Source: Parvularia atlantis
Taxonomy: Eukaryota > Opisthokonta > Rotosphaerida
Length of the DNA: 41,266 bases
Assembly: GCA_943704415.1 (NCBI GenBank)
Contig: CALSCO010000972.1
Location: 1 to 41,266, forward strand
Direction of reading: 5' to 3'
Below are positions 1,636 to 31,239 of the stretch, in pieces (position 1 is the first letter of the stretch; every line of letters starts with the position of its first letter). A program made the position numbers and the translations under genes. Under the pieces are notes generated by a model. The model had not been told where the DNA came from. It saw only the letters and a list, made by a program, of their open reading frames with translations, and searched no databases.

Positions 1636-2830
<1,195 letters not shown>

Positions 2831-2944
2831 GCACGGGCGCGCGGCTGATGAGGCAGTGAGACGACAGATGTGGCGGTGGCACTGAGAAAACGCCTCTCTT
2901 TGCGTGCCGCTTCCTGCCTTGCTGCTGCTTGGCGTCGCTGTGCG

Positions 2945-2986
<42 letters not shown>

Positions 2987-3053
2987 GGTGGCGCATAGAG
3001 AGCCGCGCCGCACGTGACTGACGTGCCGCCACCCAGGGGTCGATAAGCTCACA
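2831..3053. repeat. Spacer with (CTG)13 microsatellite
   Basis: The spacer between the complex I gene and the receptor gene contains an uninterrupted CTG run at 2947-2985 (39 nt, 13 units). The receptor's ATG lies 68 nt downstream, so the repeat probably falls in its promoter or 5' UTR. No other structure was seen. Confidence 0.9.
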
Positions 3054-6000
3054 ATGCCGCTGCGCCTGCCGCTGCTGGTGCTCGCGGCGGCGTGGATCCT
3101 CGCGCTGCTCGCGACGCGGCCGACGGTGCAGACCGCCGCCGCGCGCCCGTGGTGCAGCTGCAGCACGACATGGGCGCCCGGGCGCGCCGTCCGCCCCGAC
3201 AACTTCACCGTGCCACGCGGCGACTTCGCCCCCGTCGCCAACGTGACCGCGAGCCTCTGCGGCGCGGCGGCGTACGGCGCCGACTGCCTCGGTGCGCCGT
3301 GCACCGCGCTTAACAAGCACGCCGGCGCGTGACTAAGTGGGCGCTGTCGCACGTGCCTGCAGCGTGCAGCTGCGACGCGCCGTGCAGCGCTATCGGCGAC
3401 TGCTGCCCCGACTACGCCGCCGTGTGCGAGCAGCCCGTGCCGCCACGTGCGTCGCGTGGTGCTTCGCGCCAATGTCAGGCAGCTGATGATGACGTGACAT
3501 TCGTCGCAGACGCGACGCATCGCCCGGCGCTGCTCGAGACCCTTGCGCCGCTCCACGTCCACATGCCGCTGCCCGCCGTGCTGTTCCAGGCGTACGGCTT
3601 CGTGACGGGGCTCACGCCGTGGCCGCCGGTGCGCCGCCTGCGGATGATTGCGTTATGGTCGCTGACTGACCGCGTTGCGCAGGCCGTGTCGATGAGCGAC
3701 ACGCCGATGTTTGTCTTTGGCGACAGCGACCTGCCCGAGGACGAGAGTGACGAGGGCCTGGTCAGCGCCGAGACTGTGCTCGCGGCCTTCATGACGCAGC
3801 GCGCCGACATCGTCGGCCGCGTGGTGCTGCTCCGCGGCGACATGGCCTTCATCTTCGAGTTCGTGACGCTCGAGCGTCTGGCCACGCACTTGCAGAGCCT
3901 GGGCGCCGTCGCGCTGGTCGTCGCCGGTGCGTGCTGCTGCTGTCCCCTGCACATGCGCGTTTTGTTCTCATCCGCCGCACGCAGCCGAGTCCTTCAACGG
4001 CCTCTGGGACACCCATGCGCCGCATGTCGACTATAGCGACGACGTGACCATCCCTGTCGTGCTCCTGCCGCAGCTGCAGTGCGTCTGCGCGCCGCACGTC
4101 TGCGCGCCGCACGTCTGCTCGCTCGCGTGCACTGTGTAGCTAACATGGCGGCCGTGCAGTCCGCTCGTGGCCGAGAAGAGTGAGGTCTGGAACAACACGT
4201 CGCGCATGCGCATCTCCGAGGGTGCGTGCGGGCTGGCCGTGGGCGACGCGCAGCTGAGTGCGCCCTGTTTGCCAGGCTGCCCGTCGACGTGCCTGCTGCA
4301 GTCGCGCTACCCGCTCGGCTTCCGCCCGACGAGCGTGCTAGAGCCGTTTGTCGACGTCGCGTCGCAGTCGCTCAGCAACATGCTGCTTGACCCGCGTGGC
4401 GACTCGTACTGCAACCCAGAGTGCAACAACGCCGCCTGCGGTGTGCCATGTGCTCTGTGCGGAGAGCCCATGGGCTAACGGTCCCACAGGCTTCGACTGG
4501 GGCGACTGCTGTGAGCGCACTTGCGTCGGCCCTGCGTGCGGCTCGGGCGTGTGCCGCGACCCGCGCTTCTCGACCGCGCAGGGTCCGCTCGTGCCCAGTC
4601 CCCGCGCCTGCTGGGCCTGACGCCGGTTCGACGCAGGGCTGGGCCGCGTCGCCGCGATGAAAAACGACACAACGCAGTGGGCGTACTCGGTGCACGAGGG
4701 CGACCGCACCACAAGCCTCGTGGCCATGGTCGAGGGCACGCTGCTGTACGCGTACACGTCGTCCGAGACGGCGCACGTCGCCAGCAACCACCCGTGCGCA
4801 GAGGCGTTGCGCGCGCAACCACTGCTGGTCGCTCACGCGTGCACCGCAGCTTCGAGCACATGACCATGCTTGGCCCGCCGGACGTGTGGTCGGCAGGCCT
4901 CTCTGTGCACGCGTGGTGCCCCGTCATCGATCCGTCGAGCGAGCGCCAGCTCGCGGAGCTGGCATGGTCAACCGAGGTGCCGGTCAAGCCGAATGCGCTC
5001 ATCGTCGCCACGTCGGACATGCGCCCTCACATCGTCAGCATCGTCGGTGCGCGCACACACGTCCGAGCCGCGCGGTGCTGACCGCGCCGGTGCAGCGTTC
5101 TCCCAGAACGGCACGCGGCACGAGGTGTGGGGCGAGGGCGAAGCCACGTCGGTCTACGGCGCCAAACCGCCCGCCGTCGTGTACCATCTGCGCGACATCG
5201 GCAGGTGCGTGCAGTGCCGAACTGCCTGCGCGGCCGCTGATACGTGTGCGCAGCGTCAAGGCGGGGCGGTTCGTGCTCAAGATCTGGGTCCCGTACGGCG
5301 AGCGCGAGACGTTTATTGGAGCCGGCGGCGTGCGCCACTCGCGCCAGTGCATCGACGCGCTGGGCGTGTCGTCCTCGGCCCGCGCCTGCGAGTCGATGAC
5401 CGAGCCGGTGCGCGCGTGCTCTCGGCTGTGGGTGTGTCTCACCCTCGATGGCGACAGGTGTGCACGCATCCGCTCGTCCGCGTGTTCCCGAACGCGTGCG
5501 CGGCGGAGGACGCCGGCTTCTCCATCTACGGCGACTGCCGCAACGAGGGTGCGAGCGCAGCCATCCACCCCACGCTGCGCTGCTCACGGCCGCGCGCGTG
5601 CGCTCGCAGGACTGTGCTTCTCATCGGCGCAGGCGCTGCTGGGAGTGCAGATCTGCCAGGTCTGGGTGTGGGCGCCAGTCAAGGGGTGGATGCTGACGGC
5701 GGGCTGCGCAGGCCACCGTGCTGGACATGCTCACGCGCAACGGCACGGTGTCGCAACACGCCATCGCCGTGTCGACCGTGACCGTGCCCGTGACAAATGC
5801 CTCGCTCGCGCTGGCCTTCTCGCTGCTCAACAACGACCTCTTCCTGCGCGCGCGATACATCTCGGCCGACTGCGCACGTGCGTGCGCTCGCGCGGCGGCT
5901 GCAGCCAGGCTCACGTCCGCGCGACGCGACGCAGACGTCTTTCAGAACTACACCTGTCGCATCCTCTACCCGATCTGCGGCGTGCCGCCCCAGTGCTTTG

Positions 6001-9000
6001 AGATCGTCTCGCGGACGGTGCAGGCGGCCTGCGGCGCGCGCTTTGCGGCTGAGGTGTTTCTCGAGTCGCTGCCGCTGTGCCACGTGCGTTCGACCGCCCT
6101 GCGGCGCGATTGACGCATCGCCTGACACGCGCGCGCGACGCAGACGGTGTGGACGATCACCCAAACGAGCCTGACGCCGTCGCCCTCTGCGGCCCCGGAG
6201 GCAGGGCGCGACCACGTGCTGGCGGCGGTGCATATCACCGCGATCGTCGTGTCGCCCCTGGCCTTCCTCGCGCTACTCGGCCTGCTCATCATCTGCGGCG
6301 CGCCGTACGTCAAGAAGAGCATTGTGCAGGTGCACGAGCATCTGCGCAACAGCCAACCGGCCCGCAGTGCCGACGTCGAGATGGACGCTGTGACGGTCGA
6401 GAGCGCCTACTGCCTGCGGCTGCAGCAGCTCGAGTCATCGATCGGCCCGGAGGTGTACAGCATGCTGGACGCGACCGGTCTGAGCGTGGCGCACTACGCC
6501 GCGCGCGCGGGCGACGTGTCGACGCTGCTGCTCGTGGCCGCGCGCGGGCACTCGCTGGACGCACCGGACGGCGTGCAGGGCGACACGCCGCTGATGCACG
6601 CCTGCCGCACGGGCCAGGCCAAGGCGGCACAGGTGCTGCTGGACCGGGCCTGCAACACCAACGCGCGCAACGCGCACGACGAGACGCCGCTGCACCTGGC
6701 CCTCGCGGCACGGCACGCGGATGTGGCATCACTGCTGCTCGAGCGCGACGCCGACGTGCGGGCGTGCACGGCGGCGGGCGTGACCGTCCTGCAGACAGCC
6801 GTGCAGAGCGGCATGACGGCACTGATCGAGCCGCTGCTGCGGCGCGGCGCGGACGTCTGCGCAGTTGACGAGGACGGGACCAGCGCGCTCATCGCTGCTT
6901 GTCGGCTGGACGCGGACGCCAGCTTGGCCGCCGTCAAGGCGCTCCTGCCGTACGAGCCGCGCATGGACCCGGTTGACCGCCTCGGCTTTACCGCCCTGCA
7001 TTGGGCCGCCTCGGTCGGCAACACCCGCGCCGCGCAGGCGCTGCTGAGTAAGGGCCAGTGCCATGTCAACGCGCTCAACAACCGCGGCGAGACACCGCTG
7101 CTCCTGGCGCAACGCGAGCAGCGGCGAGAGATGGCCGACTTGCTCCTCGCACTCGGCGGCGAGAGCGACGCGTCGGACACACACGCGCAAGTGCAGCGAC
7201 CCGTACACAAGCGTGCCGACACGAGCAGGGACTCGCCGGCGTACAAGAAGGTGCGAGGCGCACTCATGCGTGCCTGCGCTGCCGCACCTGACGCCGCCGC
7301 GCCGCAGCACCGGGAGGACGAGCTGCGCCAGGACTTGCTTATGCTGGTGACGTGCGGACGACTGGCCAACATGCCCGCCGGCATTCGCCTCGCGCCGAGC
7401 CCGTACCTCGCCGCCGTGCGTGCGATGGTCGAGCGCTGGGGCAGCAGCTCCGTCAATCTTGTGCGTGCTTGCCCTGTCCTGTGCGGCTGCAGGCGGCTGA
7501 AGCGAGCGCCGCGCCAGCTCGACAAACACGGCAACACGATCGCGCACTACGCCGCCGGGCGAGGCGACATCCAGACGCTGGCGTACATCCTGTCGCTGGA
7601 GCTGCATCAGGCGAGCGACGGCGAGCAGACGACGTGCGTGCGTGCGCGCGTGCCACGAGAAGGCTCACGTCGGCGCGCAGCACACCCGCGACCCTCACGA
7701 CCGAGGACTCGCAGGGCAACACGCCGCTGCACGTGGCCGCGAGCTCCGGGCACGAGCACTGCGTCCAGCTGCTCGTCCGCGCCGGCGCACCCGTGAACCA
7801 CACCAACAAGCAGGTGCGGCCCGCAGGCGCAGGTGGCACCACAGCTGACGGCGCGTGATCGCCCGACTAGGCGCAGACGGCGGTGATGCTCGGGGCGGCG
7901 GCCGGGCATACGCAGTGCTGCCTGCTCCTGGCCGAGGCCGGCTCGGCGCTCAACATCCACGACGTGCACTGTTGCGTCGACTGCCCGTTGCGACGCTTTT
8001 GTGCTGACGTGTACACGCCCCCCGCCCCAGCCGCTACCGCGATCGCCTACGCCGCCGGGTCCGGGCGGAGCGAGCTCGTGTCGTTGCTGATCCGTTACGG
8101 CGCCGACGCTGACCTGCGCGACGCGAGCGGGTCCTCGGCGCTGACGATCGCGGCGTGCTTTGGGCACACGGTGCGCTCGCGGTACACGGCCAGCTTTCGC
8201 TGTCGGGCTCACGGCACGGCAGGCAACGGCGCTCGAGCTGCTCGCAGCGCGCGTGAACGTGACGTGCGCCGACGCCAAGGGCTTCACGGCGCTGCACTGG
8301 GCCGTCGCGACCGACAACCGCGACCTTGTCGTGCCGCTGATCACGGCGGTGCGCGCGACGCACGGGGTGTTCGTGTTCTGTCGCTGACGGCCATCGCTGC
8401 CGCAGGGCGCCGACGTCAACGCGCCCAACGCGGCGGGGCTGACCCCGTACGGCATTGCGACCCAGGTCGGCAACCTGCCCATGCGGCAGCTGCTGTTCGA
8501 CACGGCCAGCCAGGCCGGCATCGCAGTGGCCGATGACACGACCTCGATGTCGTCAGGTGGTGCGTCGCGTGTGTGCATGTTATTGCGCGCCAGCAGCGCT
8601 GACATGCGCTGCCGCGCCGCAAGCAGACGACAGGATGGACGCCGACAACGTGCTGGAGGTCGTGCACGAAGCGCGTGCGGCCGCAGCGGCCAAGGGCCCG
8701 CGCAGGAAAGCAGGGTACGCCGCCGCGCCGGCCGGCAAGAAGCGCAGTCCAGCGCGGACAGCCCAGGTGCGAAACGCGCGCGTACACCTGCTTGTCCGCG
8801 GCTGACCGGGGCGGCAGGTCAAGCAAGCGGACGTCGTCATGGTAGCGCCGGCGCCGGCCCTCGCAAGCGCGTCCGACAGCGACTCGTATCGCGTGCGTGC
8901 CTGCCCGGCTGCGGCGGATCGCAGCTGAGAGAAACGCACGCGGCGGGTAGTTTTCGCTCTCGCCACCGTTGTCCGACTCCAGCCACGAGCTCAGCGACGG

Positions 9001-9197
9001 CGCGCCGCACGTGCCGCAGATGGACGCCGCGCAGGACGCCGCATTCCCGTTCCAGGAGGCGACGGCGCAGGACGAGCTGCTGTACTTTGCGCTGGCCGAG
9101 ATTGATGGCATGGTGCGCGGCTGTTGCGGCGCCCGTGCGTGCGTGTGTGTGTGTGCTGACACGGCTCCCGCGTCAGCTCTTCTCCACAGGACCGTGA
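3054..9197 (+). CDS. Notch-like single-pass receptor: SMB - PA - LNR - Cys-rich (Frizzled-like) - TM - ankyrin repeats
   Basis: A gene of many short exons. The ATG opens a signal peptide (MPLRLPLLVLAAAWILALL). After an intron at 3292-3362 comes a somatomedin-B-like knot (CSCDAPCSAIGDCCPDYAAV). Next is a PA domain at about 3700-4200 (GRVVLLRGDMAFIFEF, LGAVALVVAG, SDDVTIPVVLLPQL). An LNR/Notch repeat follows at about 4400-4530, split by the intron at 4441-4489 (CNPECNNAACG + FDWGDCCERTC). The rest of the ectodomain is Cys-containing, with Frizzled-like spacing at about 5790-6090. One membrane helix lies at about 6225-6296, followed by YVKK. The cytoplasmic part has seven ankyrin repeats (about 6471-7160) including TALHWAASVGNTRAAQALL and GETPLLLAQRE, which look like Notch repeats. 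A linker, a second set of about six repeats (about 7510-8500), a basic patch (GPRRKAGYAAAPAGKKR) and a Ser/acidic tail complete it. There are no EGF repeats. It ends 67 nt from a convergent gene. Confidence 0.75.
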
Positions 9198-9264
9198 GCG
9201 GGCCCACACATAAATGCCATTTTTGTTTGCTGTGCCTGATCCTGCAGAACACGCGCGCGCGCCT

Positions 9265-9968
9265 TCACCACTTCTTCTCGGGATGCTGCTTGTACGCCTC
9301 GTACTGGTCGCGGTTGAAGAACGAGACCTCGGTCTCGTTGCCTGCGCCTCCGTCGCGTGAGCCTCGCGCATTCCCGCTGCACCATACCCCGCCCGCGCAC
9401 GCACGGACGCCGTTCTCCCACAGCGACGCGTCGTCGCGCAAGATGTAGTCGTCGTGGTCGCGGTTGACGATAAGGTCGCTCGTCTGGCGCGGGCGGTTGA
9501 GCAGCGCGCACGCGATGCCGCCGATCGCGCACGTGCCTTGGACGCGTGCGCCGTGTGGAAGATCTTGAACGTGTCTGCGGCCGCGCGCGTCCGCGTCAGC
9601 GCGCGCCATCGAACGTGCTCGAAGCTGGCGGACCAAAGCTGTTGGTCTGGTACGGCCTGAGCGCGGGCGTCGCGCTGATCTCTGCCGTGTGCGCGACGGC
9701 GTTCGTGAGCGCGTCGATCGTGCGCGTGCGCGCAGCAGCAGAGGCGGCGCACTCTCCTGCACGAGCCGCCGCAGCTCCATCGGCGTGGCCTGCTCCAGAT
9801 CGACGCCGTGGAGCACGACGTTCTGCCGCAGATCGATTGAGCGGGCACGCGCACGGGACACGCAAGATCGCACGCGCGCACCTTGAACGTGCGGTACTCG
9901 AACGACTTGATCAGGCGCACGGTCACGGTCGCGTCGCGCGCGTGCTGCGCCGTCACCAGGTCGTCCAT
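9265..9968 (-). CDS. UPF0538 family protein (C2orf76-like)
   Basis: A small conserved eukaryotic protein of unknown function. The start MDDLVTAQHARDATVTV continues into RLIKSFEYRTFK, matching the family's VTVRLIRSFEHRNFK opening. After an intron comes NVVLHGVDLEQATPMELRRL, like the family block on V.YHGV.LDQT. Later exons give DTFKIFHTAHASK, then TSDLIVNRDHDDYILRDDA, SLWENGV, and the end NETEVSFFNRDQYEAYK, finishing in HPEKKW; the family ends with SETEIAFF...DYKNYK.NP...W. An in-frame ATG eleven codons upstream (at 10001) is possible but adds residues absent from relatives. Length after splicing is near the usual 125 residues. It is divergent from MED31, with 115 nt between start codons. Confidence 0.83.
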
Positions 9969-10083
9969 GCACGGGCGATGAGCGGGTCTAGAAGAGCACA
10001 TTACCCATCATGGCCGCGGAGTGACGGACGGGACGGACGCTGATCGCGCGCCTCGCTCGGTCACGCGCAGGGCCCACGGCGCA

Positions 10084-10642
10084 ATGAGCGCACCAGCAGC
10101 ACCTGCTGCACCTCCTGCACATCCTGCACCGGCAGGAGCAGCAGGAGCAGCAGCATCGCCTGTGGCGCAGCACGCCGGCGACGGCGAGCGTTTCCTGATC
10201 GAGCTCGAGTTTGTGCAGAGCCTCGCGAACCTGGCGTACCTCGAGTGTGCGTGGCACGCTGCTCGGTGCGCGCACATGCGCGGATGCTCACGCTCGTGCC
10301 CCGTGCAGACCTCGCGCAGGCTGGGTATATGAGGGACCCGGCGTTCGTGCACTACCTGCGGTACCTGACGTACTGGAAGCGGCCCGAGTACGCAAAGTAC
10401 ATCGTGTGCGTGCGCTGCTGCGCTTGCCCTGTGCGCGCGACGCGGCTGACGGAGGTCGCAGGTACCCGTACTGCCTCTACTTCCTCGAGATGCTGCAAGA
10501 CGAGGGCGTGCGGCGGGCGCTGGCGCACCACGAGACGGTGATGCACTTTCACAGCCAGCAGTACTACACGTGGCGGCACCACTACCGCGCGGTCAACGAG
10601 CTGCTGGGCGCGGGCGCCGACGCGGGCGCGATGGAGACGTGA
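10084..10642 (+). CDS. MED31: Mediator complex subunit 31 (MED31/SOH1)
   Basis: MED31 is a small, highly conserved subunit of the Mediator middle module that links transcription factors to RNA polymerase II. After a low-complexity Ala/Pro N-terminus (about 30 residues, unusual for the family), the conserved core begins: RFLIELEFVQSLANLAYLE. An intron at 10247-10308 joins LEY to LAQAGYMRDPAFVHYLRYL, and a second intron joins KYIV to YPYCLYFLEMLQDE. The family pattern FVQCLANP.YL.FLAQ.GY....FV.YL.YL.YWK.PEYAKYL.YP.CL..L.LLQ is complete. The end has HSQQYYTWRHHY and a Gly/Ala tail. The Ala/Pro leader begins at the first in-frame ATG. Confidence 0.93.
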
Positions 10643-11129
10643 GCGGCGCGGCTGTGGATGGAGAAGGCCGTAGCAACCATCGGGTCCGATTAAACACAGG
10701 TGCGACGCGTCTCAGCGTCAGACCGTTGCCATGTGTTTGAGCGGCCCGCATGGCCCCTCCCCGCTGCTGCGCAGTGGGACCGCGCGGCGCCTCCCTCGCG
10801 GGCCTCCCCTGGTCTCCCGTGCCGCACTCGCGCGCCCTCCACCTTCGTCCGTTCTTGACCGAGAAAGAATGCGTTTCACACTGGCATAGAGGGAGCGAAC
10901 CCACTTCGCGGTAGCCTGAGCTCCCTCAGGCTCAATTTTCGCTTTTCCTTTCCAGTTCACCCACCGTCTCCGCCTCGGCCTCCTGGTGCCTCCTGTGCCG
11001 CTCGCCACTGTCTTGTGCCGCCGCGTGCGCCGTCTGCGGGCCGCCGCGCGCTAGACGGGCGCTAGCGGCGCGACTAGCGCGTTGCTCCTTCTATTTCGAG
11101 CCTCACCGTTGCGCGCCGCCGCAGCGAAA
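10643..11129. other. Spacer of 487 nt; small perfect hairpin, no gene recognised
   Basis: No convincing reading frame or known RNA gene was found. A perfect 8-bp hairpin with a CTCC loop lies at 10913-10932 (AGCCTGAG/CTCAGGCT), followed by a T-rich stretch (attttcgcttttcctttcc). The region upstream of the RGS gene is Pro/Ala-codon-like in several frames, but only because it is GC-rich. Stretches near 10690-10720 could be 3' UTR of MED31. Confidence 0.5.
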
Positions 11130-13709
11130 ATGGCCCTCGTGGTCGTTCGCACGGGCGCGCTGGTCGCGCTGGGCGTGTACCTCGTGTTCTGCGTCGTCAC
11201 CAACAGCCTCGTGCTCGCGTACCGGCACACGCTCGTCGTGCGCGAGCGGCTGTACCAGCTGGTGCGGACGACGAGCGAGCGCGCACGGCCGGTCGCTGAC
11301 GTGCGCGGCGTGGCTCTGGCGCCCAGAACATGATCTCCTCGGTCGTGTCGGTGTGGGCGTTCGTCACGCTCGCGGTCGCGGACGCGGTCGACACGAGCAA
11401 CTTCAACTGCAAGGCGCTGCGCTGGCCCATTGGCGTCATCTTCATGCCGCTGTACCTCGGGGTGCGCTGCTCGGCTAAACCGTGGACGCGAACTCACACG
11501 CACGGCGCTCGCTCGCAGCCGCAGCTCGCGCGCGGGTTCAAGATGTACATGTCGTACAAGGTCGCAATGGAACAGATGCGCACCGAGGCCAACCCGCTGC
11601 TGTCGTGGAAGGACGTGTTCCTGCTGCGGTACAAGTGGCTCAACTCGATGCTGTTCGCCTACAGCCTGCCCGTGTTCCTCACCGTTGCCGGCATCATCGT
11701 CGCCGTGCTTATCCTCGTGTTCTGGACCGAGCAGACCTTCCGCCCGGACGAGAACGTGTACGGCGTGTGCCTCGGTCCGATGATCTACAACGTGGGCATC
11801 CAGGGCCTGTTCTTCATGATCGCGATCGTGGCCGTGGGCATCCTCGTGCTCGTGACGCGGTGCGCGGGCAGGGCGCGGCGCGGGCGGGCGGCGGTCTCAC
11901 GCGCGGCGCGCAGCACGTCGTTCCTAATTAAGGAAGAGTTTGCGTTCATCATGCTCGTCGTCGTGCCGCTCGTGCCCATGTGGATCGTCATGCAGTGCGT
12001 GCCCGCGCCCTTCCCCACATCGCAATGCGCGCCGCTCACGCACGCGCGCGCGGTGGCGGCGCAGGTACGCCAGCGGCGGCTCGTGGTTCGGCTTCCGCGA
12101 GGTGCACGTGCTGATGATGATCATGTACGGGCTGCAGGCGGCGACGACGGGCGTGCCGATCGTGCTCGTGCTCTGGCCGTCGCCCTCGAGCGACGGCATC
12201 GCGATCGGCGGGCGGCAGGTGTACGCGGACCAGGCGTCGCTGGCGTCGCTCTTCCGCAAGTGCCTATCGGTGCCGGAGCTGCGCGAGAGCTTCAAGAACT
12301 TTGTGGTCGAGTGCCTCTGCTCCGAGAACTTGATCTTCTACCTACGCGCGGTCGAGTACGAGCGCCTGCTGCCGCACAAGCGCAAGAGCGAGGCCGTGGC
12401 CATGCGCGAGATGTTCCTGATGAACAACTCGGCGTTCGAGATCAACATCGACTACATCACGCGCGAGACCATCCTGCGCCGGATCGAGGCCAGCGACGTG
12501 GACGAGACGCTCTATGCCGCGGCCAAGAAGGTCGTGCTGCAACAGCTCCTGCAGGACCCGTTCCAGCGCTGGCTGCGCTCGCCCGCCTTCCGCAGGACCT
12601 GGGCCATCGTCAGCCGCCACAACAGCGTCCAGACCTGGGCCAGCCACTGGATGCGCCGCGCGTCGATGGTCGAGCCGGGTCTGACGCGGCACATGTCGAG
12701 CTCGAGCACGTCGCTGGCGACGCTGGGCGAGGAGCTGGCCTCGACCGGCGTCATGCTCGACACGTTCGGCGGCGGGGCCCGCAAGCCCTCAGGCTCGTTC
12801 AACTCGACCTCGACCACGGGCACGGGCAGCGACAGCCACCACGACACGGCCTCGGTCACCTCCGTCCCGCCCTCGCCCTCCGAGTACACGGTTGGGCCGT
12901 CCGCGCATCGGCCGCCGTCGCTGGGCGGGCGCAAGCCGAGCCTGTCGACCATCCCTGAGTCGGACGACGACCTGAGCCGGCCGCCGCCGCCGCAGCGCGC
13001 GCGCCCCGCTGCGTCCGCGACCGCGAGCAGCGCCGCGCCCCGCCCGGGCACCCGCCCGCAGTCGCTCGTGCTCCCGCAGTACCCCGCCGCGCCGGTCTCG
13101 CCGGACGAGGCGGCCGCGGCCGCGCTGGCGTACGCGCAGGCGCACGGATCGACCATTGTCGAGCCGGCGGGGAGAGCGCGCGAGGGCCCGAGTGCGGGTG
13201 GCGTGGGCTCGCCGCCGCGCGCACGGCAACGCGACCCGGCGCACGGCCCACCCGACAGCGCGCGCTCAAGGGCCGAGAGCGACAACGAGGCGTACTGGCA
13301 GGCCGAGGCGTCGCGATCGCGCCAGAGCAGCGCACAGCCCCCCGAGCCGACCCGCGCGCGCACCGAGAGCGCGCAGACGTTCGACTCGTCGTCGCGCGCG
13401 CGCACGGACAGTGCGCAGGCGCCCGAGTCGACGCGATCGCGCGAGAGCAGCTCCGCGCCCGAGCCAGCGCTGAACTTTGTGGTCGAGGGCGTGCTTGAGC
13501 CCGAGCCGTCGCCGCTGCCGGCGCCGCGGTCGCTGCTGATCGAGACGCGCGGGAGCCGCTTCGACCTGCGGCGCGAGTCGTCCAAGGGCAGCGAGCTGTT
13601 CCGCTCGCCCACGGAGGAGCTTGAGGCGGCGCTGGCCGAGATCAACGTCGCGGTCGAGGAGGCCGACCGTGCGATCCTGATGCAGTACGACAACAGCCGC
13701 CTAATCTAA
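11130..13709 (+). CDS. Seven-transmembrane RGS protein (GPCR-like/RGS fusion)
   Basis: RGS domains speed GTP hydrolysis by G-alpha subunits; fused to seven helices they act as membrane-bound brakes or receptors of heterotrimeric G-protein signalling. Seven hydrophobic segments are visible across five exons: near the N-terminus (ALVALGVYLVFCVVTNSLVL), ISSVVSVWAFVTLAVADAV, WPIGVIFMPLYLG, LPVFLTVAGIIVAVLILVFW, GLFFMIAIVAVGILVLV, FIMLVVVPLVPMWIVM and LMMIMYGLQAATTGVPIVLV. The RGS domain follows at about 12230-12600 (SLFRKCLSVPELRESFKNF, VECLCSENLIFYLRAVEYE, then DPFQRWLRSPAFR). The last large exon (from about 12070) encodes a long, probably disordered tail rich in Ser, Pro and Arg, with repeated R-A-R-T-[ED]-S-A-Q-like units near 13350-13460. 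The order resembles plant and protist RGS1-type proteins. Confidence 0.85.
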
Positions 13710-13875
13710 GACGCGCGTCCGCGTTGCGTTCGGGTCTGGAAGGGAAGAGGGTCGTCATGGAGGGAGAAAAGGCAAGTTGGATGTGTAGCGCACGGTCATT
13801 CACGAAGACGAGCAGAGAGCAGGCTGTACATACGGCTTTACATGCGCGGCGCACGCACGCAGGCGGCGCGACCGC

Positions 13876-14157
13876 TCACTGGTTTTGCACGTCGCGCCGC
13901 GGGTCGAGGATGCGCCCCTCGCGCAGCTGCGCCAGCGCGAGCTGCCCCTCGTCAATGCCGCACGCGTGCGGGTTGCGGAACTCGCGCGCCAGCGCCTGCA
14001 CGCCCACCCACGCACGCCGTTCACACACACGTGCACACCGATGCGCGCGAGCACGCACCAGTTTGTACAGCTCGCGCTGGCCCAGGCGCGCGAACGTGAG
14101 CGGCAGCTGCCGCAGGAACGCGCGATAGAGGCGCGCGGCCTCCGACGTGGGTGGCAT
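13876..14157 (-). CDS. Small LYR-motif protein
   Basis: LYR proteins are small mitochondrial helical-bundle proteins that bind acyl carrier protein and serve Fe-S delivery or respiratory complex assembly. The N-terminus MPPTSEAARLYRAFLRQLPL carries the LYR tripeptide and a downstream Arg-rich helix. After an intron whose length is a multiple of three (GTGCGT...GTGCAG, starting right after ELYKL), the second exon has ALAREFRNPHACGIDEGQLA, like the family's F+.N...D.......L..G...L..L pattern. Spliced length is about 70 residues. The particular LYRM subtype cannot be told from sequence alone. Its start codon is only 39 nt from the annotated start of ATG101 on the other strand. Confidence 0.62.
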   Translation of the reverse strand: MPPTSEAARLYRAFLRQLPLTFARLGQRELYKLVRARAHRCARVCERRAWVGVQALAREFRNPHACGIDEGQLALAQLREGRILDPRRDVQNQ

Positions 14158-14196
14158 GCGTGTGTCACGCTACTGCTCAAATCAGAAGTGGTGCAT

Positions 14197-15188
14197 ATGG
14201 ATCTGCGCGAGTACAACTTGCGCCTGGTGCGTTCTCGCGGCGGGGCGGGGCGGCGCGGGCGAGCGGCGGGAGTGCGCAGACGTGCACGGCCGTGGCGGGA
14301 TGAAGGACGAGGGCCGATGCGGACGCGCGGCGTGGCACGACATCGCGCTGCCGCGTCACGACCGTTGATTCGCGCTCGCACATCGCGCATCGCAGGACCT
14401 GCAGGCGTACATGGTCCCGGGCGTGCTCAAGGCGCTGCTGCACACGATCGTCTTCCTGCGCGCCGTGGGCAACGTGCAGCCGATCGACGAGACGCTCGAG
14501 TTCCTCGACGTGACCTACGTGCGCCGCGCGGCGTGGGCGCGACCTCCGTTTCCGGTGGGGCGCTGACGATGCGCGGCTCGCGCGGCAGGTGCGCTGCGAC
14601 GACAAGCAGGTCGAGCGCATGGTGGCGTCGCGGGTCGACGTGCTCACGCGCACGTTCCATCAGTCGGGCAGCCACAGCCATCGGGTGCGCGTGGCGCGCG
14701 ATCGCATGGGCACGCGTGGGCAGCGGCCGACGTGCGGCCCGCGCGCAGGCCGTGCTCAAGTTCAGCAAGCGCAACAGCGGCGGGATGATGTCGCGGCCGG
14801 TCGTGTTTGAGCAGTGGTTGATAACGCTCAATTTTCTCGCGTCGCCGACGAGGGGTGCGGGCGCGCGAGACGCGTGGCAGACGCGCGCTGACGCCAATGG
14901 CGACGCAGAGTCGGAGAAGCTGCAGGCCAAGCAGCGCGTCGAGGCGGACCTGCGCAACGCGCTCGTGTACGTGATGACGATGGCGATGCAGGACCGCGCG
15001 CACCTGCCCAACATCGACGACGGGCGACTGACGTGCGTGCTTCGGCCCGGGCGCTGCCGTGCATTGACGCCCGCCGTGCGCCCAGTGTCCCGTTTGACTT
15101 CTCGATCGAGGCGTCGTCTGACGCGCGCGGCGGCAGCGGGTGGGCGAGCACACTCTACAACGTCTTCTCGGCGCCGCCGGGCACGTGA
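14197..15188 (+). CDS. ATG101: Autophagy-related protein 101 (ATG101)
   Basis: ATG101 is a HORMA-fold subunit of the ULK/Atg1 autophagy initiation complex and partner of ATG13. The frame reads MDLREYNLRL, an intron, DLQAYMVPGVLKALLHTIVF and LRAVGNVQPIDETLEFLDVT, then YVRR; this matches the ATG101 pattern VEEAMLAVLHTVLLHRS.G...........DVDFIDFTYVR. Later exons give AVLKFSKRNSGGMMSRPVVF, EQWLITLNF, DLRNALVYVMTMAMQDRAHL, then PNIDDGRL, an intron, and TVPFDFSIEAS. The motif SEVV, which aligns with the conserved N-terminal SEVLEV of relatives, lies just before the annotated ATG with no in-frame ATG upstream. The true start may therefore lie in an unseen 5' exon or be a non-ATG codon. Confidence 0.8.
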
Positions 15189-15342
15189 GCGCTTTTGACG
15201 CCGGGCGTGTGAGGCGACGGCTCGACCGCGCAACTGTACCACCATCTCTGCCTGCGCTGCATGTGTAGGATCCGAGCAGAGCCAAGGCCGGAAGAGCCAA
15301 GACGAGTCCGTCACGCTTCATCTCCGCCAGGCGAGACGCAGC

Positions 15343-16577
15343 ATGGCGGCGCTCGGTCGGCTGCTTGTCGCGGCGCGGCCGTCGGTGGCGCGGGCGGCGG
15401 CCGTGGCGGCCGTGGCGGCGACGGCGCCCGCGCGGGGCCTCGCGTACGTCGAGAAGATGAAGAAGTACCGCCCGACGAGCCCGGGCTTCCGCTGGCGCAA
15501 GATCGTGGACCGGTCGCACCTGTGGAAGGCACGTTGGTCTCGCGCGCGTGGAGGAGCAGAAGCAGCAGCGGCCGCTGAGGCGGTGTGACGCGCAGGGCGA
15601 GCCGTTCCTGCCGCTGACCGAGGGGCTGCGCAAGAAGGGCGGGCGCAACCACCACGGGCGCATCTGCGTGCGTGGGCGGCCGATGTGCTCGGCGCCGTGA
15701 TATCAGTCAGGCTGATGTCGCGGCGACATCGGCGGGCAGGTCTTCACCAAGGGCGGCGGGCACAAGCGGCGCTACCGCCTCGTCGACTTCAAGCGCGCGG
15801 GCGAGGTCACGTGCGACGTGCAGCGGCTCGAGTATGACCCGAACCGCTCGGCGTGGATCGCTCTCGTCAAGGATCGCGCCTCGGGCGAGTACAGCTACAT
15901 CCTGGCCCCGCGCGGCATTGACAAGGGCGACGTGCTCGTGGCCGGCGAGAACGCCGACATCAAGGTGGCGTGCCGCTCTGATGGCTCGGCCGCGCTGATG
16001 GGGCCCTCGGCGCAGCCCGGGAACGCCCTCCCACTCAAGAACATCCCTGTAGGCACGCTCGTGCACAACATCGAGCTGCGCCCGGGCCACGGCGGCAAGC
16101 TCGCGCGCTCGGCCGGCGCGTCGGCGCAGATCATGAAGGCGCGTCCTGCCTCGTCCGTTGGCCCTCCGCTGACTGCGCTCTGTGCAGACCGACTCGACCG
16201 GCTACGCGCAGCTGCGCATGGGCTCGCAGGAGGTCCGCCTCGTGCCGGTGCAGTGCCGCGCGACGATCGGGACGGTGTGCAACCCGCTGCACAAGAACAC
16301 GTACGAGGGCAAGGCCGGCGCGTCGCGGTGGCGCGGGCGGCGGCCGAGCGTGCGCGGCGTGGCCATGAACCCGGTCGACCACCCGCACGGTGGCGGCCAG
16401 GGCAAGACGTCTGGCGGTGCGTACAAGGGGGGTGCGGCGTGCCGTGGGCTCACAAGCGCCCGCGCGTGAACAGGCCGGCCGTCGTCCTCGCCCTGGGGCA
16501 TCTACACGAAGGGCGTGCGCACGCGCAAGAACAAGTTCACCGACCGCTTCCGCGTGCAGCGGCGCAAGGTGCCTTGA
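15343..16577 (+). CDS. MRPL2: Mitochondrial large-subunit ribosomal protein uL2m
   Basis: uL2 helps form the peptidyl-transferase centre. The N-terminus [20 protein letters not shown] is a typical mitochondrial presequence. The family landmarks are in order: [70 protein letters not shown], the middle loop [39 protein letters not shown], and [10 protein letters not shown]. The near-invariant C-terminal motif is [18 protein letters not shown], followed by the ending [18 protein letters not shown]. The bacterial-type order and presequence show that it is the organellar protein. Several short introns interrupt it. It is convergent with the cardiolipin synthase gene, with 38 nt between stop codons. 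Confidence 0.95.
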
Positions 16578-16615
16578 GAGGGGAGGGCGCTGTACACACA
16601 CAGACGCACGGCACG

Positions 16616-17625
16616 CTATGATGGCCCGCGCGGCTTGACAAACACGACGTAGCGGCGCGCGTTGACGATGTAGTCCATGCCCGAGGCGACCGTTGTGGCT
16701 GCTCTCGGCGTGCGCGGGCGAGTGGGTGCAAGCACGCGCAGGCAGGAGCAGGGGCCGCGCGCACCGATCACGAGCGACTCGAGCCCGCGCAGCGCCAGGT
16801 GGCCCTCGAAGCCGAAGACACGCGCGGCGAGCACGCTGGCCAGCAGCGTCAGCTGCAGCGCCGTGTTCCACTTGGAAAGGTTGGACGGCCGCAGGTCGAC
16901 CGAGGGCAGCTTGATGTCAAAGTACCTGTGCACGTGCGCTTGAGTGTGAGCGTGCGGGGACTGAGCACGGTGTGGCACCTGCTCAGCGTCTTGGGCGGCG
17001 GCAGTGACGCGTAACGCAGATAGAAGCCGGCGACGATCATCCCGGCGTCGCGCGTGACGATGAGCAGCGCGACGGGCGGCGACAGGAGGCCTAGGGGGAG
17101 CGTGCCACGCATGAGAGGAGCGAGGCGACAGGGAGGCGCCGCACCGGCTGCCCAGGTGCTCAGCGTGAGCGTGGTCATCAGCAGCTTGTCGGCGAAGGGG
17201 TCGAGCGCGGCGCCGAAGACGGTGCGCTGGTCCCAGGTGCGCGCGATCCAGCCGTCCTGGTGCGCGCGTCAGCAGCGGCAGCACACGCACCCACGCGCAC
17301 GCACGAGCAAGTCGGTCACGCCTGCGGCCACAAACAGCCCGAGCGCGGCCGAGTAGTGCCCGTCGACGACGAGGAAGCCGAGCACGGGCGTGGCGCAGAT
17401 GCGCGAGAGCGAGAGCAGGTTGGGCAGGTTGAGCACGCGCTCGCGCCGCTGTGGCCTCTGCGGCTGCTCCTGCTGCTGCAGCTGATCGTGTTTCGGCTGC
17501 TGCACCGGCTGCTGCTGCTGCTGACGTGGATCCGGCACGCTCGCCACACGCCGCACGAGCGACGGCGCGCCTCGCAGCGGCAGCCGGAGCCGCGGCAGCG
17601 CCGGCACCGTCCTGAGCGCAAACAT
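16616..17625 (-). CDS. CRLS1: Cardiolipin synthase, CDP-alcohol phosphatidyltransferase type (CRLS1)
   Basis: The enzyme joins CDP-diacylglycerol and phosphatidylglycerol to make cardiolipin in the inner mitochondrial membrane. The N-terminus [20 protein letters not shown] is an Arg-rich presequence, followed by a Gln-rich stretch and the conserved opening [20 protein letters not shown]. After an intron within VTDLL comes the full catalytic signature DG(x2)AR(x8)G(x3)D(x3)D, read as [20 protein letters not shown] followed by FAD. All three catalytic/metal-binding Asp residues are present. Downstream are helices [19 protein letters not shown] (with the conserved RD) and the cardiolipin-synthase-type block [20 protein letters not shown], like the family's PS..SK.NT..Q. 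The stop is TAG at 16616-16618. Its start codon is 24 nt from that of MED20 on the other strand. Confidence 0.9.
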
Positions 17626-17649
17626 CGACCCAACTTTTCAGCGTCCGAA

Positions 17650-18560
17650 ATGACATCGGCACCCGGCGCGACCGTCGTGTGGCTGCTCACGACGCGCAAC
17701 ACGGAGATGAAGGACGCCGACGTGGGCACGGTGATCAACGAGCGGCTGCAGGTGCTCGACGCCGCGCTCGTGCAGCGCTGCTCGGCCCAGATCCGGCTCT
17801 ACAAGGCGCGCACACCGTCGTACGGCGCTCGCATCCGTCCCTGCTGACGCCGCGGCACGCACGATGCGCGCGACGCCCAGGAGCCGCAGCAGCGCGGCGG
17901 CGCCCCGCCCAAGTCGCTGTACCTGGCCACGACGTCGCGCGTGCCCAACCGCAGCTTCTGCGTGATCAACGACAGCTGCGTCGAGGGCTCGGGCGACCTC
18001 GAGCTGATCGTCGGCAAGCTGCGCACGATGTACGCGCTGCGGCAGACGATCTCGCTCGCGGTGCGGCGCGCGTGTGGGCGCAGGCGCGGGTGCGCGTGCG
18101 CGTGCGGGGCGGCTGATGCGGACGCGCGCGGGTGCGAAGGGACACGAGTACCTCCTGGGCGACTTTAGCGTGCGGCTTGGCAGCATCGGCGCGTCAACGG
18201 TCACGGCACGGCGCGGCGTGATGCTCGAGGTGCGGGCGGCTGAGTACATCGCGCGCGCGGGAGGCCAAGGCTGACGTGAAGGGGACGCAGATCGAGTACA
18301 AGCCGCTCACGAGCCTCGCCGTGGCCCTGCCCGTGATCAACGACCTGCTGCAGGCGATCGTGCCCGAGGGCGTGCACGCGGCCACGCAGCACATGGCCGA
18401 CCCCGTGCGGGTGCGGACGCCCGCTGGACCGCTGTCGTTTGCGCGTGCTCAACCGGACGACTCGCAGGCACTGGGCGCGTATCGGCTCGGGCCAGCGTAC
18501 TCGCACATGCACACGGTCTGCCAGTACCTCCTCGCGCTGCAGGCCGAGGAGTTTCTATAG
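17650..18560 (+). CDS. MED20: Mediator complex subunit 20 (MED20)
   Basis: MED20 belongs to the Mediator head module and pairs with MED18. The N-terminus ATVVWLLTTRNTEMKDADVG, then VINERLQVLDAA, has the expected VQ..-type strand and helix. Exons then give KSLYLATTSRVPNRSFCVIN and LELIVGKLRTMYALRQTISL. The most diagnostic block is GHEYLLGDFSVRLGSIGAST followed by ARRGVMLEVEY-like sequence, which matches the family's G..Y...DF.V..G.V.......G...EVEY. The last exon carries the C-terminal strand-helix ending HTVCQYLLALQAEEFL. Length is near the usual 210-230 residues. It shares an unusually small promoter with cardiolipin synthase. Confidence 0.8.
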
Positions 18561-18809
18561 TGCGCGGGACGCCAGAAGACGCGCAAGGCGCAACCGCCGC
18601 CTGTGTACAGGAGCCGTTGCGCATCAAGCAGCAGCCGCAGCCCCTACAGCTCGGTCACGCAATCATCACGTGACCGCCTCGTGGCCCCAACTTCCGTCGT
18701 GCTGCGCCTTCGCCTTCCCTTTGCAGCAGCGGCCCCCCCACCGCACGCACGCGCACTGACGCGCAGATCGCTCCCTCCCCTCCCCCGGTCCGCGCCGCGC
18801 GCAGAGAGG
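18561..18809. promoter_or_regulatory. MED20-elongase spacer with palindromic E-box
   Basis: The 249-nt spacer contains TCACGTGA at 18666-18673, a palindromic E-box of the type bound by bHLH-zipper factors, about 137 nt before the elongase ATG. A C/T-rich stretch (18760-18790) lies just before the start codon. Whether the E-box is used is not shown by sequence. Confidence 0.35.
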
Positions 18810-19700
18810 ATGCAGTACTTCCCGCAGTACGACTGGCTCGTCTCGTACGAGGTCATGGGCGCGGCCGCGCTCGGCTACCTGCTGAGCATCGTCGTGCTGC
18901 GCGCGGTGACGGAGCACTTTGACAAGCTCGACCCGAAGCGGTTCATGCAGCTGTACAACACGGCGCAGGTCGCGCTGTGCGCGTACATGGTCGTCGGCTT
19001 CGCCCAGGCCCAGTTTGCGCTCACGAACCCGTACGGGATCAACCACGCGTTCAACGCGGCGACCGAGTGGTTCATGCTTGTGCACTACCTGTCCAAGTAC
19101 CTCGACTTCTTCGACACGTGGATCATGATCGTCAAGAAGAGCGAGCGCCAGCTCAACTTCCTGCACGTGTACCACCACACGTCGATCCTGCTCATCTGGG
19201 GCTTCCTGCTGCACCTGGGCCAGGGCAACGGCACGGCGTACTTTGGCGCGTTCATCAACTCGGTCATCCACCTGATCATGTACTCGCACTACCTCTGGAC
19301 CTCGTTCGGCTACACGAACCCGTTCAAGATGGTCGTCACGCTCGCCCAGCTCGCCCAGTTTTGGATCTGCATTGGGCACTCGCTCATGGCCGTGATCTAC
19401 GAGCGCGTGCTCATGCCCGAGCTGGCGTACCTGCAGTTTGCGTACCACATCACCATGATCGTCCTGTTCAACGACTTCTTCTCCAAGACGTACAAGAAGG
19501 GCGACAAGCGCGACAAAGGCGAGAAGGGCGAGAGGGGCGAGAAGGGCGCGAACGGCGTGGGCGCGAACGGCGTGGGCAAGAAGCACGACAGCGCGAACGG
19601 CGACGGCAGCACGGGCTTGAGCACGGGCATCAGCGCGCACACGCACAGCAACGGCGTGCACCACCGCGACGCGGCCGGGCGCGCGCGGCGCGACCAGTGA
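18810..19700 (+). CDS. ELO-family very-long-chain fatty acid elongase (3-ketoacyl-CoA synthase)
   Basis: Enzymes of this ER family condense malonyl-CoA with a long-chain acyl-CoA. The gene is intronless, which is unusual here, and encodes 296 residues. The landmarks are ordered as in the family: KYLDFFDTWIMIVKKSERQL, the catalytic HVYHHTSILLIWG histidine box, FINSVIHLIMYSHYLWTSFG, and a run of hydrophobic helices (about seven in total). The tail after the last helix (FFSKTYKKGDKRDKG) carries repeated KG[DE]-type units near nt 19490-19560 that look collagen-like, then a Gly/Asn/His-rich end with no clear KKxx retrieval signal. The KYLDFFDTW and HVYHH forms resemble polyunsaturated-acid elongases of protists, but substrate range cannot be assigned. 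The first in-frame ATG at 18810 is used. Confidence 0.9.
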   Translation: MQYFPQYDWLVSYEVMGAAALGYLLSIVVLRAVTEHFDKLDPKRFMQLYNTAQVALCAYMVVGFAQAQFALTNPYGINHAFNAATEWFMLVHYLSKYLDFFDTWIMIVKKSERQLNFLHVYHHTSILLIWGFLLHLGQGNGTAYFGAFINSVIHLIMYSHYLWTSFGYTNPFKMVVTLAQLAQFWICIGHSLMAVIYERVLMPELAYLQFAYHITMIVLFNDFFSKTYKKGDKRDKGEKGERGEKGANGVGANGVGKKHDSANGDGSTGLSTGISAHTHSNGVHHRDAAGRARRDQ

Positions 19701-19785
19701 AGCGCTCTGTGTGCCGTTCCCTGTGTGCGTGTTCAGCCCATCGATGGACATCTGCGTCGCACGCATATCCACGCAGCCGACAGCC

Positions 19786-20287
19786 ATGGCGTCGTACCTG
19801 AGGGGCATCGTCGGTGCGCCGTCTGTCTCTCTCTCGCGCGCGGCCGCCGCCTGCCTCACGCCGCGCCGCCGCCAGCCCCGCTCAAGCCCGCGCTGTACTA
19901 CGCGCGCGTCGGCTGGGAGGTGACCAAGAGCGTGTGGGCCAAGGAGAAGCTCGGTCCGCCCTCGACCGCCGACTGGCCCGCGGCGCAGCGGCAGCTGCAG
20001 CAGGCGCGCGCACAGGACAGGACGGGGACGCGCGGGGACGCTGACGGCGGCGGCGCGCAGATGCTCGGCAACATGAAGCTGTCGTACCTGCTCAACTTGA
20101 GCGTGAAGGACGCGATCAGCAAGAGCCTCGTCGGCTTCCAGGTGCGGCACATGGCGCCTGCCTTCTCCTGGCTGACTTGGTCGCAAAGATCTTCACCTTC
20201 TTCATCGTCGGCGAGATGATCGGCCGCCGCAGCATCATCGGCTATAAGCTTAAGGTGCAGGCGCCGCCGGCCGCCGGCCACCACTAG
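19786..20287 (+). CDS. ATP5MG: Mitochondrial ATP synthase subunit g
   Basis: Subunit g sits at the dimer interface of the F1Fo ATP synthase and helps shape cristae. Exon 1 (MASYLRGIV) joins through a GTGCGC intron to APLKPALYYARVGWEVTKSV. Next are WAKEKLGPPSTADWPAAQRQ, KLSYLLNLSVKDAISKSLVG, and, after an intron with a CTGAC motif, the diagnostic membrane helix IFTFFIVGEMIGRRSIIGY. The last block matches the family's W...GE.IG+R.+.GY with its GxxxG-like dimerisation surface. The stretch around 20005-20060 (QARAQDRTGTRGDADGGGAQ) is in frame but looks intron-like (CTGAC then GCGCAG). It would need a GC donor, so it is left as coding with doubt. Confidence 0.82.
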
Positions 20288-22170: not shown

Positions 22171-23096
22171 ATGAGCCCTCTGCGTCTTCTGCTCGTTGCC
22201 GCGGCGCTGGCCGTCGCCGTCGAGCGCGGCGCGGCGCAGGCCCCCGAGGCGCCGGTTTGGCCGGACCAGGTGCGCCGTGCCGCCGTGCGGGCGCCTGCTG
22301 ACGCGGAGGGCGAGCCGGCAGTGGACCGCAATCTTCGCGTTCAATGAGACGTCGGCCGCGGGCGTCGCAACGCCGTGGGAGGCCGGTGCGTGCGGACGGG
22401 CGCGCGTGGACGTGGCCGGGTGCTGATGGCACCATGCAGCCGCCAAGTACTACGACCACACGATCCCCGCGCTGCGCCAGGATCAGATCGTCGAGGGCGC
22501 CGTGACAAAGTCGTTCATCCACATCGGCCCGCGCCTGTACGAGTTTTTCCCGGCGACGGGCGTGTGCGTCTACGTCTTCATGGGTGCGGCGTGCCTCGTA
22601 CGGAGCGACGCAGAACTCAACCCGCGCGTGACGCGCCACTGGCAGGCATCGGCCCGCTCAAGCAGACCTGGCTCGTCGGCGCACCCTACATCGGCGAGTT
22701 CCTGATCAACGACGTGCCGTCGTACGGCTGGGACCAGGGTGCGCCGTCGTGCCGGGCCGCGTGCATATTTTCCCCTCGTGCTCACACGCGCGCGTGCGAT
22801 CGTAGCCGAGCACTACTACTACGCCAGCAAGAACAGCGGCCGCCCTACGCGACTTATCGCGTTCGGCCCGTCGCGCGAGCTGCTCGAGCAGAACTTTGTC
22901 AACTACGTGCGTTTTTTTTGCGCCCTGCTGCGCGTGCTTTGCGCTGACGGGCGCGCAGCTCGAGGGCCCGATCGACCTGCGCAAGTTCGAGGTGCCGGAG
23001 TTTTGCCTGACCAACTCGACGCGCACGGCCACGCTCAAGATCGCCCCGCCGCACTTCATCGTCGACTACTCGGTCCTGTCAAGGTACTACTCGTGA
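22171..23096 (+). CDS. Secreted protein, LolA/ependymin-related-like
   Basis: The ATG opens a signal peptide (MSPLRLLLVAAALAVAVERG, cleavage probably near AAQA). After the introns the exons read WTAIFAFNETSAAGVATPWE, AKYYDHTIPALRQDQIVEGA, FIHIGPRLYEFFPATGVCVY, LKQTWLVGAPYIGEFLINDV, HYYYASKNSGRPTRLIAFGP, NFVNYV, and EGPIDLRKFEVPEFC. The YYD...+.R.D block, the RP.RL..FG strand and the F.NY..GPID...F.VP..C ending recall ependymin-related proteins (LolA-like fold, hydrophobic-ligand binding). The resemblance is in pattern only. Six exons with GTGCG introns can be traced, and the protein has few cysteines. Function is not known. Confidence 0.55.
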
Positions 23097-23142
23097 TCCG
23101 CGCGACGCTGCCGCCGCTCCATGTGAACGCCCTGTCTTGTGT

Positions 23143-23169
23143 CACACACACACACACACACACACACAC
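23143..23169. repeat. (CA)n microsatellite
   Basis: A 27-nt uninterrupted CA run lies in the 92-nt spacer between two convergent genes. It is a plain dinucleotide repeat with no other structure around it. Confidence 0.95.
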
Positions 23170-23188
23170 GCGCTCAGCCAATCTCCCG

Positions 23189-24214: not shown

Positions 24215-24426
24215 GGCACGGTGCAGCAGCAGCAGCAGAACGGACGAGCGCAGGGCCGAGCTGCGCGCGTCGTCAGAGATCGGTGACAGAACGCGCAGCT
24301 GTCACGCAACCGCCACATTGAAAGCGGCGGGCGGATGCGCGCACGGGTGTGGCGACGGAGTGCTGATGCTTCTCTCTCGCGTCTCTCGCGCAGCGCGATC
24401 CGCCCCGCGCGCAGCCCGCCGCCGCG

Positions 24427-27175: not shown

Positions 27176-27208
<33 letters not shown>

Positions 27209-29540: not shown

Positions 29541-29567
29541 CGCGCTCGAGTGCTTCGCTTCTCTGTG

Positions 29568-29662
<95 letters not shown>

Positions 29663-29877
29663 CCTGATAGCATGTGCCGTCTACCACCGTCATGACCGTG
29701 TGCGTATGTCATCGAGTGCGTGAGTCATCGAGGGTCAGCTCGCACAGTGTGTTTTGTACAACGGCCACCGCCTCACGCTTGACTTTCCAGTGTGAACCGT
29801 TCTGGCCCTCAAGGCCAAACGCGAAGTTTGACCTGAACACCGCGCACTCACAGCCAACCGCGGCGACTCTTACTTAG
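29541..29877. repeat. Spacer dominated by (CT)45 microsatellite
   Basis: An uninterrupted CT run occupies 29569-29658 (90 nt), beginning 28 nt after the kinase stop codon, so it probably lies in its 3' UTR. The remaining 219 nt before the SDR gene are less GC-rich than the rest of the window and show no reading frame or recognised motif. Confidence 0.95.
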
Positions 29878-31167: not shown

Positions 31168-31208
31168 GCCACGTTCGAGGTGTGTTTCGAGCTGTCATAG
31201 ACCTCGGT

Positions 31209-31225: not shown

Positions 31226-31239
31226 CAGCCACTTTGGCG

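Follow-up and report, generated by a model that had tools for sequence, protein, structure and literature searches.

The gene on the forward strand at 3054-9213 of the window (the whole stretch of 41,266 nucleotides analysed) is predicted to encode a Notch-shaped type I receptor, and we tentatively favour the reading that its cytoplasmic part would be released to the nucleus by gamma-secretase and that it was assembled independently of animal Notch. Judged by its predicted protein, it is not a Notch by definition: there is no EGF repeat, half an LNR stands in place of three, and the RAM motif is missing. As a description, "Notch-type architecture without EGF repeats" is supported by the predicted order of LNR, membrane helix and ankyrin repeats.

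We prefer this reading because of the domain order and topology, the single exon shared by the helix and the first ankyrin block, the presenilins, nicastrin and CSL proteins encoded in the same genome, and a soluble relative with the same type of ankyrin block. Counted against it are the non-consensus splice at the LNR, the missing RAM motif, the changed RAM pocket and the mean pLDDT of 49.2 for ankyrin block 1. The domains and the helix are read from the predicted sequence, and cleavage, release and nuclear action are what we infer. The somatomedin-B (SMB)/PA-like/half-LNR ectodomain would face outward, with two ankyrin blocks of seven repeats each, a basic cluster of nuclear type and an acidic tail on the cytoplasmic side. 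On a signal the ectodomain would be shed, gamma-secretase would cut the membrane stub, and the ankyrin part would enter the nucleus by means of its basic cluster, where the ankyrin blocks and the acidic tail might work in a Notch-like manner as a transcription co-regulator. Contact with CSL could be made through the ankyrin blocks, not through RAM. Such a receptor would have arisen in an opisthokont outside the animals, one that seems more fungal- than animal-like, and without common origin with animal Notch. A further point against the reading is that presenilin has many other substrates.

Gene structure

The window is one contig of a genome of 16.25 Mb in 616 contigs, with a GC content of about 69%. 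A single gene had been proposed for 3054-9197, and one long predicted coding path bears this out: the splicing model, run from the ATG at 3054 and corrected by hand, has 27 introns and encodes 1535 residues. The proposed start stands; in our model the stop codon finishes at 9213 instead of 9197, a difference that depends on the last splice. Three corrections were made by hand. The segment 8675-8752, which holds the basic cluster, was retained as an exon because its frame is open (its treatment as an intron in the first automatic model was dropped), an intron was added at 7971-8030, and the last intron was placed at 9113-9189. When the automatic model was retrained on the codons of the other genes of the window it again gave 3054-9213, with 28 introns and 1498 residues.

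Introns predicted within the gene measure 46-81 bases and are mostly of the form GTGCG...CAG; outside it, the donors GTGCGC, GTGCGT and GTGCGG occur in 78 of 132 predicted introns, a count that the model itself promotes by favouring such donors. The membrane helix and ankyrin block 1 lie in a single uninterrupted exon (6144-7250). The coding score of 4500-6210, under a codon model trained outside the receptor gene, is 131.6; 30 Markov shuffles reach 6.5 at most, and the antisense strand 16.0.

The gene model is convincing as a Notch-shaped one with one weak splice. The weakest predicted intron joins the exon of the LNR to the rest of the gene, between the LNR and the membrane helix. Its donor is non-consensus and its 3' end is better than its donor; if it is not removed, the frame runs into a TGA at 4618-4620.

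4583-4636, forward strand: weakest of the predicted introns (its donor is GTCCGC, and CTGAC stands 16 nt ahead of the intron end)

Extracellular region and membrane helix

The predicted extracellular features and the helix are as follows.

3054..3143, forward strand: signal peptide (residues 1 to about 30; from hydropathy windows that start at residues 1-7)
3252..3427, forward strand: somatomedin-B domain (residues 67-101, spanning the intron 3292-3362; PF01033)
3683..4178, forward strand: PA-like region (residues 148-266; PF02225)
4398..4512, forward strand: C-terminal half of one LNR (GDSYCNPECNNAAC, then GFDWGDCC; split by the intron 4441-4489)
4516..6212, forward strand: remaining ectodomain (residues 345-749; no family matched in Pfam; sequons for N-glycosylation)
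6213..6299, forward strand: single membrane helix (about residues 750-778, then APYVKKS; hydropathy)

SMB and PA domains are extracellular modules, and the preliminary description had placed both here. The first assignment holds and the second falls short. Somatomedin_B (PF01033, cut-off 23.1) reaches 24.8 bits on residues 1-367, which passes the profile cut-off for membership of the family, 22.4 bits on the whole protein, under the cut-off, and 31.8 bits on the open frame 3314-4036; PA (PF02225) reaches 20.4 bits against a cut-off of 23.9 on residues 1-367 and is unlisted for the whole protein. The LNR that had been reported is present only as a C-terminal half. Its match to PF00066 (cut-off 21.2) covers profile positions 15-35 of 36, and its scores are 21.0 bits on residues 1-367, just under the cut-off, 17.2 on the whole protein and 18.6 in the genome search. 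By eye, the last four cysteines are spaced as in an LNR, and the best match in the PDB is the LNR of Notch1 (1pb5, E 0.069, the first of 8 matches up to E 5). Three tandem LNRs are absent, with one half-LNR stretch matched by Pfam in the 1535 residues. The absence of EGF repeats, as claimed before, is upheld, no EGF family being among the Pfam matches up to E 1 over the 1535 residues. NOD and NODP likewise have no Pfam match up to E 1 over that length; their models are regarded as suspect in PMC6040629.

Eight of the ten N-glycosylation sequons fall in the ectodomain. No paralogue of the ectodomain is found elsewhere in the genome, since all 11 matches (E up to 10) lie within the receptor gene. 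A second candidate LNR gene, on contig C419, scores 16.0 bits in the genome profile search, under the cut-off. Hydropathy windows above the threshold are confined to the N-terminus (starts 1-7) and to 750-769, so that the single helix described earlier is indeed the only peak besides the signal peptide, and a single-pass type I topology is predicted.

Cytoplasmic region and a soluble relative

Beyond the helix the following features are predicted.

6306..6461, forward strand: juxtamembrane stretch, without tryptophan
6471..7178, forward strand: ankyrin block 1 (W), seven repeats (residues 836-1071; Pfam Ank families, repeat comparison)
7518..8498, forward strand: ankyrin block 2 (W2), seven repeats (residues 1147-1382; Pfam; in-order duplicate of block 1)
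8695..8757, forward strand: NLS-like basic cluster GPRRKAG...GKKRSPAR (sequence)
8818..9210, forward strand: Ser/acidic tail, with DELLYFALAE near its end (sequence)

There is no tryptophan between the membrane helix and ankyrin block 1, and therefore no RAM motif of the form hydrophobic-Trp-hydrophobic-Pro in that stretch. Ankyrin families match the full receptor protein with E-values down to 1.5e-71 (Pfam). The seven-repeat ankyrin domain after the helix is present and is followed by a second one; the seven repeats described earlier are thus actually 14, and block 2 duplicates block 1 in order. When W is compared with W2, the observed sum is attained by four of the 5040 repeat orders, counting the observed order itself (p 0.0014 across all registers). 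A single-sequence structure prediction of block 1 has a mean pLDDT of 49.2, too poor for a structure search. The basic cluster and the Ser/acidic tail that had been noted are both found in the sequence.

A gene elsewhere in the genome (contig C606; L064 1146-3033, reverse strand) encodes a predicted soluble protein of 514 residues with a seven-repeat ankyrin block of the W type. The N-terminal half of this C606 protein is acidic by eye, and there is no hydrophobic helix beyond a poly-Ala peak; an in-frame stop lies just upstream of the ATG, and the contig ends at 16266. In the comparison of W with C606 only one of 5040 orders, the observed order itself, reaches the observed sum (p 0.0004 across all registers), and W2 shows no significant shared order with C606 (p 0.298). 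The W-type ankyrin block therefore occurs off the membrane too. The segments GTTPLILAATL...GRTALHWASANN...RGRTPLFLAYLEG of C606 are also near Notch repeats 4-6.

Relationship of the ankyrin blocks to Notch

With the ankyrin domain of human NOTCH1 as query, the receptor gene is the top match in the genome (76.6 bits, 39% identity), ahead of the next gene at 47.6; the search lists 30 matches, of which 2 are within the receptor gene. Plain ankyrin similarity was dropped as evidence of kinship with Notch because ankyrin itself scores equally high. The Smith-Waterman score of W is 236 with NOTCH1 and 256 and 248 with two ankyrin pieces (NOTCH1 with the ankyrin pieces: 207 and 210). A profile of the Notch pair scores 151.0 on W, 150.9 and 155.0 on the ankyrin pieces, 156.0 on gankyrin and 151.5 on L002, an ankyrin gene of the same genome; lower scores are those of C606 (136.5), W2 (107.1), BCL3 (141.2), IkBa (113.5) and four other genes of the same genome (99.9-114.3). 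Against W and C606 together the Notch-pair profile gives 187.9, and the W/C606 profile scores 190.3 with Notch and 198.0 and 201.9 with ankyrin. In a PDB search with block 1 the first three whole-sequence matches are ankyrins (ankyrin-1/-2), and the Notch ankyrin domain is missing from the best 60 of 444 matches.

The order of the repeats weakly favours the Notch register for block 1, with p between 0.01 and 0.12. Repeats W2-W7 of block 1 pair best with Notch repeats 1-6, each repeat W_i with Notch repeat i-1. Out of 5040 permutations, the observed order included, the observed sum is reached by 4 for W and NOTCH1, 84 for W2 and NOTCH1, and 98 for W and fly Notch; for the C606 block the counts are 28 (NOTCH1) and 21 (fly), and for the family mean 10. 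Once corrected for register, the test gives p 0.011 for W with NOTCH1 and 0.116 with fly (0.0052 and 0.158 in an earlier form of the statistic), 0.120 and 0.653 for W2, and 0.047 and 0.040 for C606. The corrected family means against Notch are p 0.010 for W and C606 and 0.015 with W2, and 14 control arrays tested against the mean of both Notch domains all have p of at least 0.14. Against single targets, 1 of 28 control tests falls below 0.05 (ankyrin d2 with fly, p 0.012). When W is compared with six non-Notch arrays, ankyrin d2 gives p 0.008 and the other five at least 0.127. The motifs quoted in the earlier description do stand in the Notch order, but the similarity of block 1 to NOTCH1 does not exceed that to the ankyrin pieces.

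The phylogenetic trees, of 15 rows each, disagree. With free alignment, in a register that differs from that of the order test, W, W2 and C606 group together (93/94), apart from Notch; a tree constrained to join them with Notch is 7.65 log units worse (p-AU 0.141), and the blocks fall with two ankyrin pieces on one side of an unsupported branch (56/0). With the register fixed by hand, W groups with Notch (82/77), C606 joins them (81/60), and the five rows stand on one side at 77/52. The grouping with Notch that had been put forward as a check of homology is therefore obtained weakly, and in the hand-fixed register only.

Notch-pathway components and host lineage

The genome that encodes the receptor also encodes presenilin and nicastrin. 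The genome search gives nine exon matches to presenilin, in two genes, and both predicted proteins keep the catalytic motifs (WD or YD, GLGD and PALP); one scores 359.3 bits in Pfam, with part of its predicted N-terminal stretch left out by hand. Nicastrin is matched over the cut-off at one place (50.7 bits against 25). There are two genes for CSL proteins of the RBP-J type, one of which has a long N-terminal extension.

L032 1535-4896, reverse strand: CSL (RBP-J type) gene
L033 2022-5601, forward strand: CSL (RBP-J type) gene

They are 43% and 34% identical to RBPJ across 393 and 318 aligned residues. In one, all three CSL domains are over the Pfam cut-off; the other was aligned to RBPJ. The positions of the RAM pocket we take to be F261, V263, A284 and Q333 of mouse RBPJ; against this reference two of the four have no aligned residue because of a gap, and the other two differ in both proteins. 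With neither RAM motif nor RAM pocket kept, any contact with CSL must therefore differ from that of Notch, and a Notch-type RAM contact between this receptor and CSL is, on sequence grounds, not expected. On the contig of one CSL gene, a protein like SUZ12 (by eye) is encoded at L033 6742-8907 on the reverse strand.

EF1A of this genome carries the insertion GWKKLDKKGAEVKGV, which we take to be an opisthokont marker. The genome profile search gave no match to cadherin, none to SH2 (the control genomes gave none either) and one, over the cut-off, to Fungal_trans. Choanoflagellates, by contrast, have both cadherin and SH2. Two CSL proteins together with a retained gamma-secretase would fit an early fungal-line organism. 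According to PMC1973085, fungi typically have two CSL paralogues of different length, co-regulator residues of the BTD are generally not conserved, and the Notch pathway is lacking; the genome studied here shares with these fungal CSLs the two paralogues of differing length and the changed co-regulator residues. The main text of PMC10406608, on fungal CSL/gamma-secretase systems, never uses the word Notch.

Alternative explanations

The TGA at 4618-4620, unless the weak-donor intron removes it, would divide the region into two genes, one, up to 4620, for a secreted SMB-PA-LNR protein and one, from 4657, for a membrane-ankyrin protein, and the best forced split falls exactly there. We consider this unlikely. 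The single-gene model scores 512.4 against 492.5 for that split, although a fixed penalty for an additional gene makes up 12 of these 20 log units. The CTGAC near the end of the disputed intron speaks for splicing there: 14-26 nt from the end, this motif stands in 15 of the 132 introns outside the gene, and it precedes 3 of 352 exonic CAGs (branch term off). The second protein would have no signal peptide, yet sequons lie in the approximately 375 residues before its helix, and the two genes would be spaced by just 36 bases. As one protein, the receptor could quite possibly be an ordinary membrane ankyrin receptor or scaffold, whose ectodomain binds matrix or cell surface and whose ankyrin repeats tie cytoskeletal or signalling partners, with neither cleavage nor a nuclear step. 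Block 1 is as near the ankyrin pieces as it is to Notch, its repeat order also matches that of ankyrin d2 (p 0.008), the free tree puts the blocks beside two ankyrin pieces, if without support (56/0), and SMB and PA are modules of the extracellular side. Against a scaffold stand the basic cluster and the acidic tail that come after the repeats, the soluble relative with its acidic N-terminal half, and the retention of presenilin and nicastrin.

Common descent is the other way to account for the likeness to Notch. LNR, helix and ankyrin repeats might come from a gene ancestral to animal Notch as well, EGF repeats, RAM and further LNRs having been gained later or lost here. The first place of the receptor gene in the NOTCH1 search (76.6 bits against 47.6), the pairing of W2-W7 with Notch repeats 1-6 (family p 0.010 and 0.015, 14 controls at 0.14 or more) and the tree with hand-fixed register (77/52) all point this way. 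The profile scores, however, show no preference for Notch, p is 0.116 for W with fly and 0.120 and 0.653 for W2 while a control, ankyrin d2 with fly, reaches 0.012, and only half an LNR and neither RAM motif nor pocket are retained; we regard a true proto-Notch as rather improbable. The preliminary description had left the choice between an early-branching and an independently assembled Notch-type receptor. Independent assembly is the likelier half, and early branching is not borne out: EGF repeats, three LNRs and RAM are wanting and the profile scores are no nearer to Notch. There is a slimmer chance still that an LNR-membrane-ankyrin receptor sharing descent with Notch predates the split of animals and fungi and survives in this organism, placed on the fungal side of the opisthokonts, next to gamma-secretase, CSL and the soluble ankyrin paralogue. 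On that view Notch would have come from the remodelling of an older receptor, which gained EGF repeats and the RAM contact, and not from a new shuffle at the animal or choanozoan origin.

Comparison with known systems

With animal Notch (human NOTCH1 and fly) the receptor shares the order of LNR, single helix, seven-repeat ankyrin domain, basic cluster and Ser/acidic tail. Unlike animal Notch it lacks EGF repeats, a NOD/NODP match and a RAM motif, has only half an LNR, and adds a second ankyrin block and the SMB and PA-like regions. Ankyrin-1 and -2 resemble block 1; ankyrins are soluble, 24-repeat adaptors that have neither an ectodomain nor a membrane helix.

Outside animals, Notch of Mylnosiga fluctuans (PMC6040629) and a Notch-like gene of Monosiga (PMC2770060) likewise have the order LNR, helix, ankyrin, but these choanoflagellate receptors have at least one EGF repeat, where the present one has none. 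According to those two papers, the Monosiga gene, with one EGF, two LNRs, a membrane helix and three ankyrin domains, is weakly similar to Notch, and Notch is a metazoan synapomorphy made by domain shuffling (PMC2770060); the order EGF-LNR-membrane-ankyrin is restricted to animals and choanoflagellates in the data set of PMC6040629, where NOD/NODP were found in no sponge or choanoflagellate, again with the models under suspicion. A literature search with most subscription papers outside its scope gave no title on a fungal-side receptor of the LNR-membrane-ankyrin type. Such a receptor in another opisthokont that has gamma-secretase and CSL would mean either repeated invention of this layout or a greater age for it than has been assumed.

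Neighbouring genes

The other genes of the window recognized by Pfam are listed below.

1636-3021, forward strand: thioredoxin-like 2Fe-2S protein (complex I 24-kDa type)
about 10100-10500, forward strand: Med31
22171-26307, forward strand: PCI-domain protein like COPS2
37273-38425, reverse strand: DUF1275
38691-40736, reverse strand: Rad21/Rec8

A run of CTG repeats lies upstream of the receptor gene, at about 2948-2986. After Med31, within a fused prediction at 3054-20287, hydrophobic stretches seen by eye are followed by an RGS domain (56.3 bits), as in 7TM-RGS receptors. The prediction at 26322-33458 on the forward strand holds JmjC/cupin, ankyrin repeats, a tyrosine/TKL-type kinase and 3-beta-HSD, with a bZIP-like stretch (by eye) further on, and is probably several genes fused by the gene finder.
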